From: Kordia sp. | GTDB taxonomy: Bacteria; Bacteroidota; Bacteroidia; Flavobacteriales; Flavobacteriaceae | Assembly (NCBI RefSeq): GCF_022447245.1 | Contig: NZ_JAKVBC010000028.1 | Span: forward strand, 1 to 64,000 | Direction: 5' to 3' | DNA: 64,000 nt | Shown: positions 2,929-30,305 of the stretch, piece by piece | How the letters are laid out: each line of letters opens with the position of its first letter | How positions within the stretch are numbered: position 1 is the stretch's first letter | The notes under the pieces: model-generated | Seen by the model: the letters and a program-made list of their open reading frames with translations, nothing else | Told to the model about the DNA's origin: nothing | The model's database searches: none | Made by a program: the position numbers and the translations under genes

Positions 2929-3099
2929 TTAACTATTTTCTTCCTTCTTAGTCTTTTCAAGATATCCCTTGTTAGGACATTTTGTCCAGTTATCACAACA
3001 ACTTATTATGGCTCTTCCACCAAATAATGCAAAATTAGATTGAAAACTTGAGACACTTTTTTTGTTAAGTTTTAAAGAATTAAGATTTCTTTTTTTCAT
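2929..3099 (-). CDS. GG-leader ribosomal natural-product precursor peptide (class I lanthipeptide-type leader)
   Basis: 56 residues from the ATG at 3099, which gives the typical leader start MKKRNLNSLKLNKKSVSSF. An upstream in-frame ATG at 3132 would only add an atypical 11-residue tail. The leader ends in FGG, followed by a 27-residue core with three cysteines (CC and C) plus Ser and Thr. This leader type (K-x-LKSLKLNKK-x-S) occurs in Bacteroidota peptides annotated as class I lanthipeptides or GG-leader natural products. It is solitary: no modification enzyme, protease or exporter lies nearby. It belongs to the same family as the peptides at 25.3-26.3 and 29.3-29.8 kb. Confidence 0.75.
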   Translation of the reverse strand: MKKRNLNSLKLNKKSVSSFQSNFALFGGRAIISCCDNWTKCPNKGYLEKTKKEENS

Positions 3100-3467
3100 T
3101 TGGTAAAATTTAAAAGTTAATAATGATTTCAATGTACAAAATCAACCTCTTTTTTTACTTTCTACTGTACGAAATAAATTAATAATTTATAAGATAAATA
3201 ATGCAAAACTACCAACTATTCACTTTATAGTCAATTACAATTTTACTGTACAAAAAACAGCTTGAAATTCACTTTACATTTTTCAATTATATAATCAAAA
3301 CCTCTCTTTTTTAAATTTTCTCCATCAAAAAGAAAATAAGTTATTAAGAAAATTAACAACTCAATCGTTGTAGTAGCACTTTTTTTATTCGATCCAGATT
3401 TTAGAGTATGAAAAAAGTTGTGTAAACTTTATATTGCAGTAATACTAACAAAAAATATCCCTTCAAT
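3100..3467. other. AT-rich intergenic region between precursor peptide and amylase gene
   Basis: No open frame or structured RNA was seen in these 368 bases. It must hold the divergent promoters of the peptide (minus) and of the amylase (plus). No full TTTG-N19-TAnnTTTG match was found. Confidence 0.5.
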
Positions 3468-20871: not shown

Positions 20872-20949
20872 TTAGTTTTGTTTTTATGGGAATAAAGTAT
20901 GGGTTTCCATACGCAAACTTTTATCCCGAAAGTTTGACATTAATTATGA

Positions 20950-21166
20950 AAATTGGCAGGTCTCCTGACTTACAATTTGCTATATACCTTCCCGAAAATT
21001 CAGTGGTCATGTAGTTATAGCAATTCATTTTTGAAATGAAGTACTGAATATCATTCAGCACATGCTTACAGTTGCGGGAACAGTTCAAGAATGAAGGTGC
21101 GTTGCCTTTTCACTTGATTCCCTTTTAATCCGAGACTACTAATGCATGCTCGAAACCAAAATTCGC
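20950..21166 (-). promoter_or_regulatory. Cobalamin (adenosylcobalamin) riboswitch controlling btuB
   Basis: Read on the minus strand, the core GTGAAAAGGCAACG and CCCGCAACTGTAAGC elements of the cobalamin aptamer are present, followed by the B12 box GTCAGGAGACCTGCC (20969-20955). Outer-stem arms near the two ends pair in seven of nine positions. It ends about 80 nt before the btuB ATG. Binding of cobalamin is expected to reduce btuB expression. No separate aptamer precedes the divergent btuF. Confidence 0.95.
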
Positions 21167-21248
21167 CGCAAAAATAAACATTCTTTTAGAATCTATCTAT
21201 ATAAAACATGAAATAATATTACTTTTGAAAAAATAAGCAACCATATTC

Positions 21249-23456: not shown

Positions 23457-23941
23457 ATGCATAAAGCTTTTTTCAAGGATTTAAAAGTTTTTGAATTATA
23501 AATCAATTGTATTTATATCTAATCTTTCTTTAACTACTCAATGATTTATCTAATTTAAAAAGTTCTAGAAATTTCAAGTTTTCTGTTGTATTTTTTATTA
23601 ATTGTAATATTGTCAACTCCATTTTTATGATCAGAAATGATCTTATCAAAATAATAATCAGATGAATCTAAATAATTAATAATTTCATTCTTGATCTCCT
23701 TAAGTTGCAATTTAGTTTTATTATCTATCTGAGAGGTACATGAATTACAAAACGCTAAAGAAAACTTTAATACGTTCACTATTAAACGAATACACCTTTA
23801 CTTTGATTTTTTTCATTTCTATACTTTATATATTTCATAACTATTCTTTTTATAACTCAAAATCAAAAATACAATTTCACTTTTTAAAATCTACTGTAAA
23901 AAAACGTACTTTTATCATCTCAAATAAAAAAACATATCTCT
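23457..23941. other. AT-rich insertion separating the btuD start codon from its coding region
   Basis: Right after the btuC stop an ATG (23457) opens only 14 codons. The btuD frame resumes with KTITYPVLQAASLSIGY from 23942. The roughly 480 bases between are even richer in A+T and carry small opposing frames, one on the minus strand (23555-23779, containing SLAFCNSCTSQIDNKTKLQL) and one on the plus strand (23740-23943). No transposase, terminal inverted repeat or target duplication could be seen. Confidence 0.55.
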
Positions 23942-24740: not shown

Positions 24741-24884
24741 AAAAAAACGCCTTATCAAGCGATAAGACGTTTTCTAAAACTAACCAACCAAAAAATGTAA
24801 TACGACTCTCTTTACTCAAGTAACCAGCTCTTTGTACTGTCGTCATCGTAATACACATTACATAAGTCAACATCTGTGCCAAAA
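24741..24884 (-). ncRNA. Structured RNA, repeat copy R1
   Basis: One of four related elements of about 145 nt. Read on the minus strand: TTGGCAC (24882-24876), a stem whose arms are TGTATTACGA and TCGTATTACA, an inner hairpin TTAC-TTGA-GTAA, the constant segment TTGGTTGGTTAG, then a terminator stem AACGTCTTATC/GATAAGGCGTT with GCTT loop and T run. The R1 terminator stem differs in sequence from the other copies but keeps the pairing, including one G-U pair, and the same loop. On the plus strand that pair would be a C-A mismatch, which fixes the strand. It also closes btuD from the other side. Confidence 0.75.
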
Positions 24885-25058
24885 CGTTACACTATTTCTT
24901 AAAAAGATTATATTTTCTGTTAAATAGTCACAAAATAGTATTAATACTAATGCAGAATATTAGAAATACTGCTAAGTGCTAAAGAAGTCAAAATTAGTTC
25001 AACTTGCAATTTTGTACGCGTCTTTCAGACTTCCCAAAATTGAGTTTCACTAAAAACG

Positions 25059-25201
25059 AAAAAAACACCTCACAAGCGTGAAGTGTTTTTTTAACTAAAC
25101 TAACCAACCAATGTACTATGACTCTCTTTACGCAAGTAACCAGCTCTTTGTACTGTCATCATCATAATACTATATACTATGAACCAACTTTCATACCAAA
25201 T
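25059..25201 (-). ncRNA. Structured RNA, repeat copy R2
   Basis: Same architecture as R1 and in the same orientation, about 170 bases upstream of it. The main stem is GTATTATGA/TCATAGTAC: compared with R1, a C-G pair has become T-A on both arms, a compensatory change. The inner hairpin is TTAC-TTGC-GTAA. The conserved TTGGTTGGTTAGTTTAG precedes the terminator CACTTCAC/GTGAGGTG with GCTT loop. The upstream element is TTTGGTATGAAAGTTGG rather than TTGGCAC. No gene follows before R1. Confidence 0.75.
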
Positions 25202-25265
25202 TATTGTACAGTCCTTTAAATTCTAACAAAATTTTAGCATTTGAAAGCTTCTGTAGATGATTAGA

Positions 25266-25316
25266 AAAAGGCTTCATTAAAACAGCAATACTATGGTAAC
25301 TATTTTTTAATGAAGC
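25266..25316 (-). terminator. Terminator-like inverted repeat ending the precursor peptide operon
   Basis: Perfect 12-bp arms GCTTCATTAAAA (25271-25282) and TTTTAATGAAGC (25305-25316), with a 22-nt loop, are followed on the minus strand by CCTTTTTCT. It lies 20 nt after the last precursor (dead) of the operon. Confidence 0.55.
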
Positions 25317-25335
25317 ACTTTAAGTGTTGTTTAAA

Positions 25336-25529
25336 TTAGCCAGCACAGTGTATAACTGAATCTGTACATGTTCTAAGATCTGAATTATTACAAGAGAAAA
25401 CAAATGTATAATGGCAGTTCCTAGAAGGTCCACATGCGCCTCCACTAATTCCTACTTTGATTTCTACTTAATTAAAATTAGAAATTGTGTTTTTTTTAGT
25501 GATAATGATGTAAGGTTTTGTTTTTTAAG
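25336..25529 (-). pseudogene. Dead GG-leader precursor peptide
   Basis: The minus strand from 25529 reads LKKQNLTSLSLKKNTISNFN, clearly the family leader. However, the codon where ATG is expected is CTT, preceded by ATT, and a TAA follows the leader. After it come VEIKVGISGG and a cysteine-rich core with five cysteines (ACGPSRNC, FSCNNSDLRTC, HCAG) to the stop at 25336. Loss of start and an internal stop make it non-functional. It is the last member of a four-peptide operon. Confidence 0.75.
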
Positions 25530-25606
25530 AATTATGCGTTTTTAATAGTTGATTGTTCATCAAGAGTTGCTTGATTATTTATTTTGAACTGGATTTCATG
25601 TTTGGA

Positions 25607-25804
25607 TTAAGCATCACAAACTACGCAAGATTTATAAGCACACGTATTTTGGCTAGCTGGCTCACAATTTAAAGATCGTGGACAAGTTTCTGTTCTACAT
25701 TCAGCATTGAGCCATGTTATTATTCCTCCTTTTAAGGTATTTGCATTAAAATTAGAGATTGATTTCTTGTTTAGTTTTAGTGATTTAAGATGTTGTTTTT
25801 TCAT
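25607..25804 (-). CDS. GG-leader precursor peptide with cysteine-rich core
   Basis: 65 residues: leader MKKQHLKSLKLNKKSISNFN, then ANTLKGG, then a 38-residue core with six cysteines and several Thr/Ser (AECRTETCPRSLNCEPASQN, then TCAYKSCVVCDA). It fits a class I lanthipeptide-type or disulphide-rich secreted peptide. The third gene of the operon, 44 nt after the preceding peptide. It probably depends on the LytTR regulator encoded upstream. The modification enzyme must be elsewhere. Confidence 0.8.
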   Translation of the reverse strand: MKKQHLKSLKLNKKSISNFNANTLKGGIITWLNAECRTETCPRSLNCEPASQNTCAYKSCVVCDA

Positions 25805-25847
25805 TTTATAAAAATTTTAGGTTAATGATTAATTATTTCTAGTGTTA

Positions 25848-26021
25848 TTATTTTGGGCTTCTTGGATCTGGATTTTTTCCTAAAGGATGGTCATTTGATC
25901 CACAATCGGCGTCTGGATCTAAAGACGGATCGGTGATATCTCTAATTCCTCCTTTTAATGAATAATCATTTACAATTATTTTCTTGCTTAGTTTTAATGA
26001 TTTAAGATGTTGCTTCTTCAT
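25848..26021 (-). CDS. GG-leader precursor peptide with Asp/Pro-rich core
   Basis: 57 residues: leader MKKQHLKSLKLSKKIIVNDY, then SLKGG, then IRDITDPSLDPDADCGSNDH and a proline-rich end. It was missed by simple gene length cut-offs, but leader, double stop and operon position support it. The core has one cysteine and the motif ITDPxLDPDAD, shared with two other peptides in this locus (ITDPNNDE, ITDPDLDGDGE). That pattern does not suit a lanthipeptide and hints at a metal-binding or differently used core. Confidence 0.75.
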   Translation of the reverse strand: MKKQHLKSLKLSKKIIVNDYSLKGGIRDITDPSLDPDADCGSNDHPLGKNPDPRSPK

Positions 26022-26061
26022 GATTAAAATGTTCTTTAATTGATTTTTATTCGTTAGAATA

Positions 26062-26273
26062 CTATGATCCAGTTCTTCTTGGTGTGGGATTTGTAGTTGT
26101 TGAGCTACTTGTAGTTCCTGTAGGATTTTCTTGTGCAGCTACGTCAGCCGCCGTGTGTTCATAATCATCCTCATCTTCATCATTATTAGGATCAGTAATT
26201 CCTCCTATAATTTAAAAGCGGTTTTATTCCCAAGAATTCGAGCATTTAATAAGGCAATGCGTTGTGTTTTCAT
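26062..26273 (-). pseudogene. Frameshifted GG-leader peptide of the ITDP type
   Basis: ATG at 26273 opens MKTQRIALLNARILGNKTAF, ending at a TAG after KL. One base off, the frame reads IIGGITDPNNDEDEDDYEHT and a Thr/Ser-rich tail ending PTPRRTGS at 26062. A single-base shift just before the GG splits leader from core, at a T4A3 run. The leader differs from the KLKLNK type but the core start GGITDP is the family one. First gene of the operon behind the 21-bp repeats. Confidence 0.65.
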
Positions 26274-26298
26274 TTTTGAAAGGTTTTAGTTAATAATT

Positions 26299-26306
26299 CA
26301 AAAGTA
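26299..26306 (-). promoter_or_regulatory. -7 box of the precursor peptide operon
   Basis: TACTTTTG on the minus strand fits TAnnTTTG, 26 nt before the first ATG. No TTTG is found 17-20 nt upstream, which would suit an activator-dependent promoter. The repeat array begins 62 bp further upstream. Confidence 0.5.
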
Positions 26307-26367
26307 TGCACATGAAAACCTTAAGCGTCTAATTTTAAATAATTTGTGACAGTTTGCCACAAAAATA

Positions 26368-26417
26368 GTGATGAATAAAAAGTGAAATGGGATGAAATAA
26401 ACTGTATTTGGGATGAA
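26368..26417 (-). promoter_or_regulatory. Three 21-bp-spaced direct repeats, probable LytTR operator
   Basis: On the plus strand GTGATGAA (26368-26375), GGGATGAA (26389-26396) and GGGATGAA (26410-26417) start exactly 21 bp apart. LytTR proteins such as AgrA, ComE and PlnC bind imperfect 9-bp direct repeats separated by about 12-13 bp, i.e. the same period. The array lies between the LytTR gene stop and the peptide operon promoter. The second module has matching repeats at 29854-29903. Confidence 0.6.
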
Positions 26418-26427
26418 TTTTTTCTGA

Positions 26428-29016
26428 TTAAAAAATCAAATTATTCAATTCAGTTACATACGAATTACTAACAGGAATTTTTTCACCGTTTACCGTAACT
26501 TCTTTATTATTTTTTGCTGCTACTTTATCAATCCGAACAATATACGAACGATGAATTCGTAAATATTCTAACGGATCTGGCATGAGATTAATGAATTCGC
26601 CAATTTTAGTACGTATAGTGTAGTTTTTTTGTTCGGTGATAACTTCTACATAGTTTCCTGCAGACTTTATATATAATATTGTATCTGTTTTTATTCTAAT
26701 TTCTTGTCCTGCTTCTTTGAATGAGAAGTATAAATCTTTGCGCTTTATTTTTTTGACTAACAAACGTAATAACTCACGGATAATATGTCTGTTATAAGAG
26801 AGTATTCTATATTTAAAAAATAAATAGATTAACACAATTACAAATAAAATTACTGAAACCACAAACCAAATTTGTTTCCAAAATGGAGCATGTATATGAA
26901 TAGGAATTTCTAAGAAAGTAAGATTTTTATCTTTTGATATTGTAGAAGCTGCTACTTTAAATATATAATCTCCATAAGGCAGTGCCGGATACGATATGCG
27001 TCTATTTTTAGTTTGATACCATTTTGTATCTAAACCTTCCATTTTATATGTGTAAGTTAGCTCGTTGGGGGCTTTAAAATGAATTCCTTCTACTAAAAAT
27101 TCTATTCTGTTTTCTTCATGAGATAGGTTTTTTAATTTTTCTTGAACTACTGACGAATCGTTTACATAAAATTCTTTTACTTTCAAGTGATATGTGTTGG
27201 ACGTAGTTTTTGCGTCAAACAATCGTTTTGGCGCATACACTAACCCTTTCTTAGAAGCAATCCAAACTGTATCTTCAATGATTTCAACATCACTAATTCC
27301 CCCATTCAATAAGCCATTTGAACTTTTTAATCCTGTGATTTGATATGTATCATTTTTTGTAAATTTTATTCTATTTAACCCGAAGTTTGTACATACCCAA
27401 AGTTCATCTTTACTTTCAATATGAAGCTCATTTATAATATTGCTCAACAACCCACTTTGTTTGGTTATGTTGCGAATTTCATTTGTTTTTTTATCATCAA
27501 TAATAATTCCTGCGCCTAACGTGCCAAAATAAACTTCTTCTCTCTTGGTATTTACATCAATATCATCTACTCTATTTTGAAACAATCGATTTTTTTTCGT
27601 TAAGGACGATACTTTCTCTTCTTTAAGTAAGTAAGCGCCATTTGGTGTTCCAAAGTATAATTCTTCTCCCCATTCTGCTACATCATGAATTCTATAAGAC
27701 ATTTTTTTTTGTTCATACCCTGTTTGATGAATACGTGTAATACTTTGGTTACTTGACATAAAAACTCCTCTTGGAGTAGGTTCTGATAGTTTAAAAACGT
27801 AATCTTTAGCAAATGAATTTTTAAAATGTTCTTTTTTACCATTTTCATCTTCCCTAAAAAATATAGTTTGCGAATGCACATATAATTGTTTGTGTATTGT
27901 ATCATACTCTACATGAGCTCTTACATCATTATTTGATGTATGTACTTTTGAAATATGACGTTTTGCATCTAACTTGAGTACATCGCCTATTCTGTACCCT
28001 ATGTACAATTCATTACGTTCATTCTTTGTTAATGATTTTACAGGAGAAGAAATACCTGTAGGCATAAATTTTATGGCTGGTTCTTTTATGTAAAAAACAC
28101 CCGAATGCAATGTAGAAAACCAATAACTTCCTGCATGATCTATTAAAAAATCGGTAACAGATTTGTTATCTAAAAAATGATCTTTAACAGTTCCTTCAAT
28201 ATCAAAAATAGTACCGCCACCAAATTCATAGCCTACAAAAAACGTAGTTGCATCAATTGCTTTTAAAGAAATTACTCTATTTTTTCTTGTGATAGTGCGT
28301 AATACTGTTCCTTTCTCGTTCAATATATGTACTTCTGTACCATCGGTATATATTTTATGCTTGTTACTTAAAAGCGAGAATGCGCTGGAATAAAAACTTC
28401 CCTTTACTTTTAGGTACAATGTGTTCTTTTTGATTGCAGAACTATCTAATGTCAAGGAAAAAAAATAGGGAGCATCATTTTTCATTTCAAATTCAAGCCA
28501 ATGTTCATTAGTAGCCATTGGGGTTTCTTGTAAGGGCTTCTCTAACAATTTACCATCTTTTGAAATGATAAACTTTCCATACATGGCTTCGCAAGAAATA
28601 TGCATATTTCCCTGATCGTCAAGATACAAGCTATTAATATGTTCAGTAGACCTTAATTGTTTTAAAAGCTTATTGTGAGGATAGGGTTTAAATCCGTTAA
28701 AATTTTCGTTGAAATAAAATAGCTGATTTTTAAACGTTGCAAAATAAATAGTTCCGTCTTTTTGCGGGAAAAGATCTAACACAACCATATCTGATAACCC
28801 ATCAGTAACGCCATAGGTTTTGATTTCGTATCCGTTATTGCTTGAAATTCCTCTATCTGTAGCAATCCAAATGACTCCATTTTTGTCTTGGTGTAATTCG
28901 TAGGTTTCTAAACTTGGTAGTCCATCAATAATTCCGAATTCTTTGTATATATAATTTTGAGCACACAAAAATTGACTGCAACACAACAAAAACAGGTAGG
29001 CACATTTGTAATTCAT
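26428..29016 (-). CDS. Membrane-bound LytTR transcription regulator with two-component-type beta-propeller sensor
   Basis: 862 residues. Signal peptide (cut near FLCAQ), then a long periplasmic sensor built of two-component-regulator propeller repeats (IIDGLPSLETYELHQDKNGV, GVTDGLSDMVVLDLFPQKDG) and a Y_Y_Y domain (YTYKMEGLDTKWYQTKNRRI). One membrane segment (about 717-738) follows, then a cytoplasmic LytTR DNA-binding domain (about 766-862, LRIHRSYIVRIDKV). It has no histidine kinase domain, so it is a one-component regulator acting from the membrane. It follows RNA copy R3 and precedes the peptide operon, with the putative operator between. It probably controls those peptides. Confidence 0.9.
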   Translation of the reverse strand: MNYKCAYLFLLCCSQFLCAQNYIYKEFGIIDGLPSLETYELHQDKNGVIWIATDRGISSNNGYEIKTYGVTDGLSDMVVLDLFPQKDGTIYFATFKNQLFYFNENFNGFKPYPHNKLLKQLRSTEHINSLYLDDQGNMHISCEAMYGKFIISKDGKLLEKPLQETPMATNEHWLEFEMKNDAPYFFSLTLDSSAIKKNTLYLKVKGSFYSSAFSLLSNKHKIYTDGTEVHILNEKGTVLRTITRKNRVISLKAIDATTFFVGYEFGGGTIFDIEGTVKDHFLDNKSVTDFLIDHAGSYWFSTLHSGVFYIKEPAIKFMPTGISSPVKSLTKNERNELYIGYRIGDVLKLDAKRHISKVHTSNNDVRAHVEYDTIHKQLYVHSQTIFFREDENGKKEHFKNSFAKDYVFKLSEPTPRGVFMSSNQSITRIHQTGYEQKKMSYRIHDVAEWGEELYFGTPNGAYLLKEEKVSSLTKKNRLFQNRVDDIDVNTKREEVYFGTLGAGIIIDDKKTNEIRNITKQSGLLSNIINELHIESKDELWVCTNFGLNRIKFTKNDTYQITGLKSSNGLLNGGISDVEIIEDTVWIASKKGLVYAPKRLFDAKTTSNTYHLKVKEFYVNDSSVVQEKLKNLSHEENRIEFLVEGIHFKAPNELTYTYKMEGLDTKWYQTKNRRISYPALPYGDYIFKVAASTISKDKNLTFLEIPIHIHAPFWKQIWFVVSVILFVIVLIYLFFKYRILSYNRHIIRELLRLLVKKIKRKDLYFSFKEAGQEIRIKTDTILYIKSAGNYVEVITEQKNYTIRTKIGEFINLMPDPLEYLRIHRSYIVRIDKVAAKNNKEVTVNGEKIPVSNSYVTELNNLIF

Positions 29017-29141
29017 ATAATAGGAACAGTTCTAAATTTTCAAGGAGAATTGTAGCTAATATATTAAAAAAATACATGGGTTAAATCGGTTTTCTTCACG
29101 ATTTCTCTCAGTATATTTTAAAAACTAATCAGTCTATAATG

Positions 29142-29287
29142 AAAAAAACACCTCACAAGCGTGAAGTGTCTTTTTAAACTAAACTAACCAACCAAAATGT
29201 AAGTACGACTATTTTACCTCAAGTAACCAGCTCTGTGTAATGTCTACATCGTATTACATTTTATACATACCAAGTACTGTGCCAAAT
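29142..29287 (-). ncRNA. Structured RNA, repeat copy R3, upstream of the LytTR gene
   Basis: Read on the minus strand: TTTGGCAC (29286-29279), TTGG 12 bases on, then a long stem AAATGTAA-T-ACGA (29261-29249) pairing with TCGT-AC-TTACATTT (29208-29195), inner hairpin TTAC-TTGAG-GTAA, TTGGTTGGTTAGTTTAG, and a terminator GACACTTCAC/GTGAGGTGTT with GCTT loop and T7. It ends 126 bases before the LytTR ATG. It could be a free small RNA or a leader with attenuator for the LytTR gene. Confidence 0.78.
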
Positions 29288-29338
29288 TTGTTTAGCGTTA
29301 AAAAAATATTTTTTGGTTGATTCGTTTTATTTTAAAAT

Positions 29339-29530
29339 CTATCTAGGATTACAGGCTCTTACGTCAGTAGCTTGACAATCTGCATTTGAGTCACTACACT
29401 CTTGCCCAGTTTTTGGTGTTTCTTTTTCTCCATCTCCATCTAGATCTGGATCTGTAATTCCTCCTAGTATCTGGCTTACTTTTACTTTGTTTAATTGTAA
29501 TGAATTAAACTTTTTATTTCTTTGTTTCAT
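29339..29530 (-). CDS. GG-leader precursor peptide with DxDxDG core
   Basis: 63 residues: leader MKQRNKKFNSLQLNKVKVSQ, then ILGG, then ITDPDLDGDGEKETPKTGQE and three cysteines to the end. The DPDLDGDGE stretch has the spacing of a calcium-binding DxDxDG loop. It is 22 nt after the upstream peptide gene and so in one operon with it. Function unknown; the leader type implies export or maturation at the GG. Confidence 0.78.
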   Translation of the reverse strand: MKQRNKKFNSLQLNKVKVSQILGGITDPDLDGDGEKETPKTGQECSDSNADCQATDVRACNPR

Positions 29531-29552
29531 CTTATTATTTTTTAAGAATTAT

Positions 29553-29750
29553 TTATCCTCTAGTATTACAAAGAGATATTGTTAAATTATTGTTGCATAC
29601 ATATACACATGTTTTATTTGTTCTTAAGTAGGTAGGAATACAATTATCATGACCTCCTGAAGCGCCTCCTTTTATGGATGATACGTCAACTCCTAATTTA
29701 GATACTTGTTGCTTGTTCAACTTTAATGATTTGATCTTTGATTTCTTCAT
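29553..29750 (-). CDS. GG-leader precursor peptide with cysteine/threonine-rich core
   Basis: 65 residues: leader MKKSKIKSLKLNKQQVSKLG, then VDVSSIKGG, then a core with four cysteines and many Thr/Ser/Asn (HDNCIPTYLRTNKTCVYVCN then LTISLCNTRG). First gene of the second, shorter peptide operon, 36 nt downstream of a -7 box and about 104 nt from the 21-bp repeats. Lanthipeptide-like maturation is possible, but no enzyme is in the window. Confidence 0.8.
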   Translation of the reverse strand: MKKSKIKSLKLNKQQVSKLGVDVSSIKGGASGGHDNCIPTYLRTNKTCVYVCNNNLTISLCNTRG

Positions 29751-29785
29751 AATTTTAAATTTAAATTACTAATAATTTGATGTCT

Positions 29786-29793
29786 CAAATGTA
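29786..29793 (-). promoter_or_regulatory. -7 box of the second peptide operon
   Basis: TACATTTG on the minus strand fits TAnnTTTG. The nearest 21-bp repeat starts 61 bp upstream, almost the same distance as in the other module (62 bp). An 8-bp inverted repeat TACTAAGT-GTTG-ACTTAGTA (29827-29846) lies between. Confidence 0.55.
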
Positions 29794-29853
29794 TTTATCT
29801 CAAAAAACAAAAAATCAAAACGGAAATACTAAGTGTTGACTTAGTACAAAAAA

Positions 29854-29903
29854 GTGGTGGTTCAAAAATGCTATGGTGTGAATTTGTAGCTTTTTGTTGT
29901 GAA
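29854..29903 (-). promoter_or_regulatory. 21-bp-spaced direct repeats of the second module
   Basis: On the plus strand GTGGTGGT (29854-29861, weak), GGTGTGAA (29875-29882) and GTTGTGAA (29896-29903) start exactly 21 bp apart. Together with the array at 26.4 kb they give a common motif G-K-K-R-TGAA-W. The location is the same, between the LytTR reading frame and the peptide promoter. Confidence 0.55.
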
Positions 29904-29906
29904 ATT

Positions 29907-30170
29907 TTATGGCTGAAAAATTAATCTGTCCAATTCCTCCTGATACAAACTATTCACTGGTAGCTTTTTTTTGTTTACAATAACTTCTCTATTGTGCTTA
30001 GCAGTGACTTTATCGATATGGACCACATAAGAACGATGAATTCCAACATACTCAAGTGGATCTGGTGTATTTTTTATAAAGGATATTATCGGAGTTCGTA
30101 TGATATAGTTTTTGTTTTCTGGAACTAACTCCATAAAATTTCGAGAAGATTTTAAATATAAAAAAAACAC
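29907..30170 (-). pseudogene. Truncated LytTR gene reduced to its DNA-binding domain
   Basis: The frame LYLKSSRNFMELVPENKNYI to the stop at 29907 aligns along its whole length with the last 85 or so residues of the 862-residue LytTR protein (LYIKSAGNYVEVITEQKNYT), including YVGIHRSYVVHIDKV. Sensor, membrane segment and the first strands of LytTR are missing. The homology begins exactly where the T run of RNA copy R4 ends, so about 2.3 kb was lost between R4 and the domain. Translation from the ATG at 30134 or GTG at 30170 would give an incomplete domain. Confidence 0.8.
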
Positions 30171-30305
30171 CTCACAAGCGTGAAGTGTTTTTTTAAACTA
30201 AACTAACCAACCAAATGTAATCACGACTCTTTTACTTCGAGTAACCAGCTCTATGTAACGTCTTCACCGTGTCACAATTTTTAAGTACCAAGTACTGTGC
30301 CAAAA
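30161..30305 (-). ncRNA. Structured RNA, repeat copy R4, fused to the truncated LytTR gene
   Basis: Minus strand: TTTTGGCACAGTACTTGG (30305-30288), the same upstream element as R3, then a stem of arms TGTGA-CACGG and TCGTG-A-TTACA that differs from R3 yet still pairs (G-U pairs included), an inner hairpin TTACT-CGA-AGTAA (one pair longer, matching change on both arms), TTGGTTGGTTAGTTTAG and the terminator CACTTCAC/GTGAGGTG with GCTT loop and T8. Confidence 0.78.

Follow-up and report, generated by a model that had tools for sequence, protein, structure and literature searches.

A putative sigma-54-switched small RNA array interleaved with an optional LytTR-peptide cassette in Kordia

The Qrr small RNAs of Vibrio are associated with a LuxO-type activator, quorum-sensing targets, and Hfq. 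Several similar Qrr RNAs occur per genome (Qrr1 to Qrr5 in V. harveyi), and transcription of one Qrr RNA is reported to depend on sigma-54 and enhancer-binding proteins (PMC8043402, PMC2680268, PMC10162802). Within the Bacteroidota, work on Bacteroides thetaiotaomicron describes FopS, multicopy paralogous small RNAs that repress SusC-type mRNAs and bind RbpB (PMC11697453), and work on Flavobacterium psychrophilum, which belongs to the same family as Kordia, describes a putative regulatory RNA, Rfp36, behind a sigma-54 (SM4) promoter (PMC9723704). Here we analyze a 64,000-nucleotide stretch of the genome of Kordia sp. (the window), in which four copies of a structured RNA, R1 to R4, lie among genes for a LytTR sensor-regulator and for small peptides with a GG leader. 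Regulators of the AgrA, ComE, and AlgR type, which share the LytTR domain, are associated with direct repeats that have a spacing of about 21 bp, and other LytTR-domain regulators activate adjacent promoters.

R resembles Qrr in having several similar RNAs per genome, a likeness proposed for the mode of working only, and differs in forming a tandem array in a flavobacterium and in its UUGGUUGGUUAG tail. It shares with FopS the multicopy, paralogous character; FopS is set apart by the canonical sigma-ABfr promoters of its published description (PMC11697453), and the comparison with Rfp36 is likewise one of descriptions. The window LytTR protein has the C-terminal LytTR domain and the repeats about two helical turns apart seen with AgrA, ComE, and AlgR, but its propeller and Y_Y_Y sensor domains belong to that one protein, in place of a separate kinase. 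The peptides share the leader MKK..LKLNKK.I..L..GG with the GG-leader precursors of ribosomally synthesized and posttranslationally modified peptides in Bacteroidota (class I lanthipeptide leader, NF038153; TIGR04149), but they score under the curated cutoff, and no modification gene was found in the stretch described here (positions 24741 to 30305).

We consider it highly probable, on the evidence of sequence, that two systems are interleaved at this locus, a sigma-54-switched array of small RNA genes and a separate, optional LytTR-peptide cassette. R would then represent an apparently undescribed, widespread family of sigma-54-driven small RNAs, arranged in tandem in Kordia. Such a family would add a further example to a class of regulators already recognized, and the RNA, not the sensor-peptide unit, is the striking part. 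The argument draws on computed promoter elements, terminators, outer-stem covariation, family spread, variable cargo, and a fixed distance from repeats to promoter box.

All four R copies lie on the minus strand where the earlier note on this DNA had placed them: R4 at 30161 to 30278, R3 at 29142 to 29260, R2 at 25059 to 25173, and R1 at 24742 to 24857, terminators included. Each RNA is about 115 nt long, with a long outer stem, an apical hairpin bearing UGGUUA, and a single-stranded UUGGUUGGUUAG tail, after which folding predicts a terminator hairpin and T run in every copy. Each is also preceded by a promoter-like element of its own, at 30289 to 30304 for R4 (TTTGGCAC-N5-TTG, with the RNA beginning 26 nt downstream), 29271 to 29286 for R3, 25185 to 25200 for R2, and 24868 to 24883 for R1.

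A covariance model was built from the RNA portions of the four window copies, with promoter positions excluded; these model-building sequences themselves score 133.4 (R4), 132.1 (R3), 133.2 (R2), and 124 (R1) bits. In the genome from which the window comes, the search recovered the four window copies, a copy on contig C15, a match on contig C5, and two weak matches, and each of ten more Kordia genomes contains 3 to 5 full copies at the array locus (in G001 distributed over two contigs) and one copy elsewhere. Of 69 matches, 50 were retained across the 11 genomes, 39 in arrays and 11 at a second locus. The C5 match (46 bits) was kept for inspection only and was dropped from the family, its tail and terminator standing directly after a coding frame without a promoter element. 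Also excluded were L067:1-60 (58.6 bits), an R copy truncated by the contig end, and 17 matches below 30 bits, nearly all of which are antisense to an R copy.

The loose form of the upstream motif, TTGG[CT]-N7-9-TTG, was found 26 to 27 nt before the RNA in all 50 copies, and the strict form, TTGGCAY-N5-TTG, in 49. The strict form occurred in 1 of 10,000 shuffled upstream regions and in 6 of 20,000 random 60-mers from the source genome. We take this -24/-12 motif to be of sigma-54 type from its agreement with the sigma-54 consensus. The source genome also encodes an rpoN candidate (PF04552, E = 1.4e-52) and gives three strong matches to the sigma-54 activator domain PF00158 (E below 1e-65) as well as seven weak ones; three PF00158 proteins are likewise given for F. 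psychrophilum (PMC9723704).

The comparison of the 11 Kordia genomes separates the RNA from the sensor and peptides. R copies occupy the array locus in all 11, with an ABC-transporter ATPase gene on one side and a GNAT gene on the other. Between the GNAT-side R copy and the rest, a LytTR gene, as a rule with peptides, is found in 7 of the 11; in the six of these other than the source genome, the LytTR orthologues are 54 to 70% identical. The G006 array has a peptide without LytTR, and the LytTR relative of this genome (38% identity) is encoded outside the array, elsewhere on that contig. In G003 (L070, 7041 to 11912), a 1623-aa helicase with DEAD and UvrD domains takes the position of the LytTR cassette, and no gene was found there in G004 and G009, the latter with 4 R copies in the array and 1 at the second locus. 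A LytTR match at E = 1e-60 was absent from the whole of G003, G004, and G009. Because R is present in every array while the interposed cargo differs, the R copies are the constant part of the locus and the LytTR-peptide cassette is the variable part.

This cargo, a LytTR gene in seven genomes, a peptide without LytTR in one, a helicase in one, and no gene found in two, would also fit an array that serves mainly as a recombination site, at which similar repeats let cargo come and go. As the principal account, we regard that as fairly unlikely, since it leaves the promoters, the covarying stems, and the copies in other genera unexplained; it may hold in addition.

The earlier note had suggested a self-contained unit, amplified in tandem, in which the structured RNA was a member together with the sensor and peptides. 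Membership of the RNA is not borne out: R occurs without an intervening LytTR gene in 4 of the 11 arrays, comes with a sigma-54-type promoter and a terminator of its own, and has relatives in other genera. The association search proposed there, made with the four-copy model, found R at all 11 arrays and LytTR between copies at only 7, and tandem amplification describes the R genes better than it describes the LytTR-peptide unit. What does stand is the combination of a sensor-regulator, a promoter with likely binding sites, and genes for secreted peptides, as seen in the LytTR genes of 7 of 11 arrays and in repeat spacing at 9 of 10 loci. The same data bear on the proposal that R acts in cis on the LytTR gene, as its leader or attenuator, with RNA, sensor, and peptides as one module. 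R3 does end 125 bp ahead of the window LytTR start, and those 7 genomes have a LytTR gene next after the R copy on the GNAT side. That reading is nevertheless very unlikely, and it was dropped because the window R copies end in terminator hairpins, R occurs in arrays without LytTR, each of the 11 genomes has one R copy at a different locus, the covariance search found no R match near the LytTR paralogues on contigs C67 and C3 of the source genome, and relatives of R stand near other genes in other genera.

Beyond Kordia, the promoter and tail pattern matched 65 of 397 Flavobacteriaceae genomes, which belong to 43 of the 237 genera, versus 5 of 397 for the reversed control; at least 8 of the 65 (G106, G123, G134, G142, G230, G275, G303, and G325) hold only coding-like or divergent matches. 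The hairpin and tail pattern, for which the promoter was not required, was found in 76 of 397 genomes (control, 11 of 397). A scan of a genome collection, which does not bound the spread, gave at least 117 stretches, with 90 matches in 80 loci among the matches listed, from Psychroserpens, Gelidibacter, Algibacter, Formosa, Lacinutrix, Bizionia, Olleya, Hyunsoonleella, Xanthomarina, and other genera; Kordia algicida is also represented among the records matched. Removal of six loci, two of them coding (L217 and L218), one coding with the same tail (L170), and three divergent (L206, L223, and L243), left 84 matches in 74 loci. R arrays or close pairs also occur outside Kordia, in G227, G378, G101, G314, G124, and G204. 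A divergent candidate small RNA is found in the source genome itself (L304, contig C4, approximately 1879 to 2010), where it follows an exact TTTGGCACGN4TTG motif and contains TTGGTTAG and the hairpin GGCGAG-TTGGTTA-CTCGCC.

At the gathering score, no Rfam family was assigned to R in the window or to the RNA in 12 further loci (11 with relatives and one with the C15 copy); these scans returned only a cobalamin riboswitch and a tRNA. Weak matches of isrN, BTnc201, Chlorobi-1, and other families on R (E up to 5) lie far below the cutoffs and were rejected. Neither the R family nor the LytTR-peptide cassette is described in the open-access titles and abstract openings searched, and body texts or other journals could hold a description.

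The second Kordia R locus carries Band_7, 2OG-Fe(II) oxygenase, and Peptidase_M15 genes (Pfam), and similar genes lie near the RNA in other genera. Among the 74 listed loci, a Band_7-like gene lies upstream of the RNA in 24 open reading frames (ORFs) from 11 organism labels and a membrane-protein gene in 44 ORFs from 18 labels; downstream are an alkB-like gene (36 ORFs, 16 labels), a hydrolase-like gene immediately adjacent (50 ORFs, 18 labels), and a dipeptidase-like gene farther on (46 ORFs, 23 labels). These names were assigned by likeness, and several of the labels, which were entered manually, read "MAG" or "uncultured." Because its neighbors recur near the RNA in other genera, the copy at the Band_7-alkB locus most likely came first, and the array would be an expansion within Kordia.

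Several results weigh against the proposed reading of R. The -24 element of R2 is degraded, with GGTAT replacing GGCAC, and this is the sole copy of the 50 that fails the strict form. Over the whole source genome, one-mismatch matches to TTTGGCACGN4TTG number 26, as many as in the reversed control (26), and the motif is thus informative only when it stands in front of an RNA. The promoter and tail count and the collection scan both require a promoter and so cannot show that relatives possess one. Genes other than Band_7 and alkB also adjoin the RNA in other genera, and for that reason a single ancestral locus can only be inferred.

In the 37 distinct array copies, 91.9% of outer-stem cells are paired, both sides have changed at 5 of 10 pairs, and none of 500 shuffles matched the covariation score. 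At the second locus, the structure supplied to the alignment paired only 26% of cells; since a one-column slide raised this to 90.9%, we take the low value as an error of register. RNAalifold gave zero consensus pairs for the family-wide alignment (58 of the 84 members), which may be faulty. Given the low value at the second locus and the lack of a family-wide consensus pair, the stems were tested by arm swapping among 83 distinct members, one identical sequence having been removed. The outer stem averaged 20.5, versus 16.5 when permuted, and the hairpin flanks averaged 14.1, versus 11.5, with none of 200 permutations as high in either case. The internal loop of the Kordia copies has an invariant GAC opposite GAG in the alignment, which might conceivably form a kink-turn.

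A frame of at least 15 codons spans the hairpin in 29 of the 50 Kordia copies, 26 of them in one frame, as it might if R encoded a small protein and its structure were incidental. Such a frame also occurs in 42 of 63 members from other genera, but 31 of these use a different one. With frames not common to Kordia and the other genera, this explanation was dropped; the stem arms covary and one-base length changes occur in the alignments, and we give it very little credence.

Among the counterevidence is also the search for targets, which covered about 1.7 million bases of the source genome with 1310 gene starts. Complements to 8 bases of the tail were found at 19 of the 1310 starts (permuted mean, 8.6; 1 of 200 permutations as high) and complements to 7 bases at 42 (permuted mean, 24.5; 0 of 200), with a position profile that is sharp at the start codon. 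Against a Markov background, the 7-base excess is small. For 495 genes from carrier genera, there were 6 complements of 8 bases (16 of 200 as high) and 9 of 7 bases (92 of 200). Two genomes without detected R gave 8-base complements at 3 of 163 (5 of 200 as high) and 2 of 160 (16 of 200) starts, and because these rates are alike, a seed in the tail is not supported. Complements to the loop showed no excess.

We propose, with these reservations, that R1 to R4 are paralogues, small RNAs about 115 nt in length that each have their own terminator, and that sigma-54 polymerase with an enhancer-binding activator would switch on several such RNAs together, the multiple copies adding up to a higher dose. 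The RNA would most probably act in trans, its U/G-rich tail or its loop pairing with mRNAs or binding an RNA-binding protein. In the alignments, the loop and tail rank with the best conserved parts of R, and the UGGUUA loop and UUGGUUGGUUAG tail, as conserved exposed parts, are likely contact sites. Kordia would have amplified the older copy at the Band_7-alkB locus into an array, which would hold the LytTR-peptide cassette as optional cargo.

The conservation of these two parts, in both of which UGGUU(A) recurs, would also fit a role of R as a sponge that takes up an RNA-binding protein. Elsewhere, on contig C5 of the source genome and at L170, coding sequence is followed by the tail and then a terminator, a distribution that would suit a sponge. 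The protein partner is hypothetical, however, and we think this reading unlikely. Coding-like ends of the form WH(D/E)..W/CY with the same TTGGTTGGTTA tail behind them were observed at L170 (7402 to 7532), where a terminator follows, and in G134, G275, G123, and G230; the tail motif is therefore not restricted to R.

A role of R at the surface or envelope is a fair guess, because in F. psychrophilum sigma-54 promoters drive chaperones, gliding genes, and Rfp36 as one putative RNA (PMC9723704). More speculatively, a Flavobacteriaceae-wide family of sigma-54-switched RNAs with UGGUUA loops and the UUGGUUGGUUAG tail might form the posttranscriptional arm of a sigma-54 regulon for envelope stress and motility, with the Qrr-like Kordia array doubling as a landing site for cassettes, a tentative proposal that we think somewhat more apt to fail than to hold. 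Control by small RNAs is little charted in the Flavobacteriaceae, for which we know of no Hfq. An RNA family that can be recognized across tens of genera by its promoter, hairpin, and tail would provide a handle on sigma-54 output there and on how these bacteria run small RNAs, and the array suggests that RNA genes can frame changeable cassettes.

The cassette itself is present on the minus strand much as the earlier note had read it, with one full and one truncated LytTR gene, two repeat sets, two -7 boxes, and peptide genes. The full gene, copy B (26428 to 29016), encodes Reg_prop, Y_Y_Y, and LytTR domains (PF04397, 58.7 bits). Copy A (29907 to 30170) is a remnant of the DNA-binding end only (PF04397, E = 5e-5); scanned as the open frame 30188 to 29907, it scores 23.8 bits against a cutoff of 22.6. 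The parts and their order do occur twice, as claimed, but the two sets are not copies of one module: over 82 residues, the copy A remnant is 65.9% identical to the paralogue on contig C67 and 58.5% identical to copy B, and the middle repeats of copy A and C67 do not differ. A tandem duplication was rejected on these grounds, and copy A, judged from its sequence, is a second cassette from a different LytTR lineage.

Three repeats 21 bp apart lie at 29853 to 29903 in copy A (starts 29903, 29882, and 29861) and at 26367 to 26417 in copy B (starts 26417, 26396, and 26375), and the copy B spacing recurs after LytTR in six other genomes. None of 1000 shuffles of the same stretch reached the repeat score of either copy, a score for which the word was picked from the sites themselves. 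A TAnnTTTG box, given for F. psychrophilum as the -7 element used by the primary sigma factor (PMC9723704), follows the first repeat by 110 bp in copy A (29786 to 29793) and by 111 bp in copy B (26299 to 26306), where a second such word occurs 50 bp farther on. At 9 of 10 loci examined, including copy A and the C67 paralogue, LytTR is followed by three repeats of 9 bp at 21-bp spacing, with TAnnTTTG 110 to 111 bp from the first; the exception is the C3 paralogue, whose repeat score was reached by 70 of 1000 shuffles. The C67 and C3 paralogues precede genes for proteins with a type IX secretion system (T9SS) sorting domain, and the LytTR regulator type thus recurs with different cargo.

This geometry agrees with, and supports, activation of the adjacent peptide promoter by LytTR. 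The propeller-Y_Y_Y-LytTR protein would sense an envelope or extracellular signal, bind the three repeats just behind its own gene, and activate the TAnnTTTG promoter, from which GG-leader peptides would be produced for maturation and export by enzymes encoded elsewhere. Since the copy A peptides retain a repeat set, they may be controlled by a LytTR protein in trans.

Open GG-leader frames start at 29750 (A1, 29553 to 29750), 29530 (A2, 29339 to 29530), 26021 (B2, 25848 to 26021), and 25804 (B3, 25607 to 25804), all on the minus strand. Two of the four copy B genes are broken as read from the sequence, B1 (about 26062 to 26273) by an in-frame stop ahead of the GG site and B4 (approximately 25336 to 25532) by a stop within the leader. 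The leaders are of lanthipeptide type, but all family scores fall below the curated cutoff: for NF038153 (cutoff, 22 bits), A1 scores 10.6 and B3 15, the best in the window, and the best overall is 17.7 (L073); A2 and B2 are without a family match. The claim that no maturation enzyme or exporter is present holds for the stretch described, but not for the genome, in which about 11 kb of contig C1 holds candidate genes for LanB, LanC, and a C39 exporter, not beside the window peptides, and further C39-domain matches are found elsewhere. The C1 region (L302, 5130 to 16361) contains LanC, LanB, a 302-aa protein, one GG peptide, and the C39 exporter. A GG-leader-type peptide with a similar leader is also encoded in the window apart from the R array (2929 to 3132, minus strand), and more GG-leader peptides lie beyond btuD in two genomes (L069, 11271 to 14660; L077, 4766 to 5491).

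Two further features lie elsewhere in the window. The cobalamin riboswitch (20938 to 21175, minus strand; 87 bits) immediately precedes a TonB-receptor-like gene of the same orientation. On the other strand are genes that we take to be btuF-, btuC-, and btuD-like, of which the ATPase was scanned, and a 22-bp tandem repeat of 2.5 copies (23799 to 23854) lies between the btuC- and btuD-like genes.

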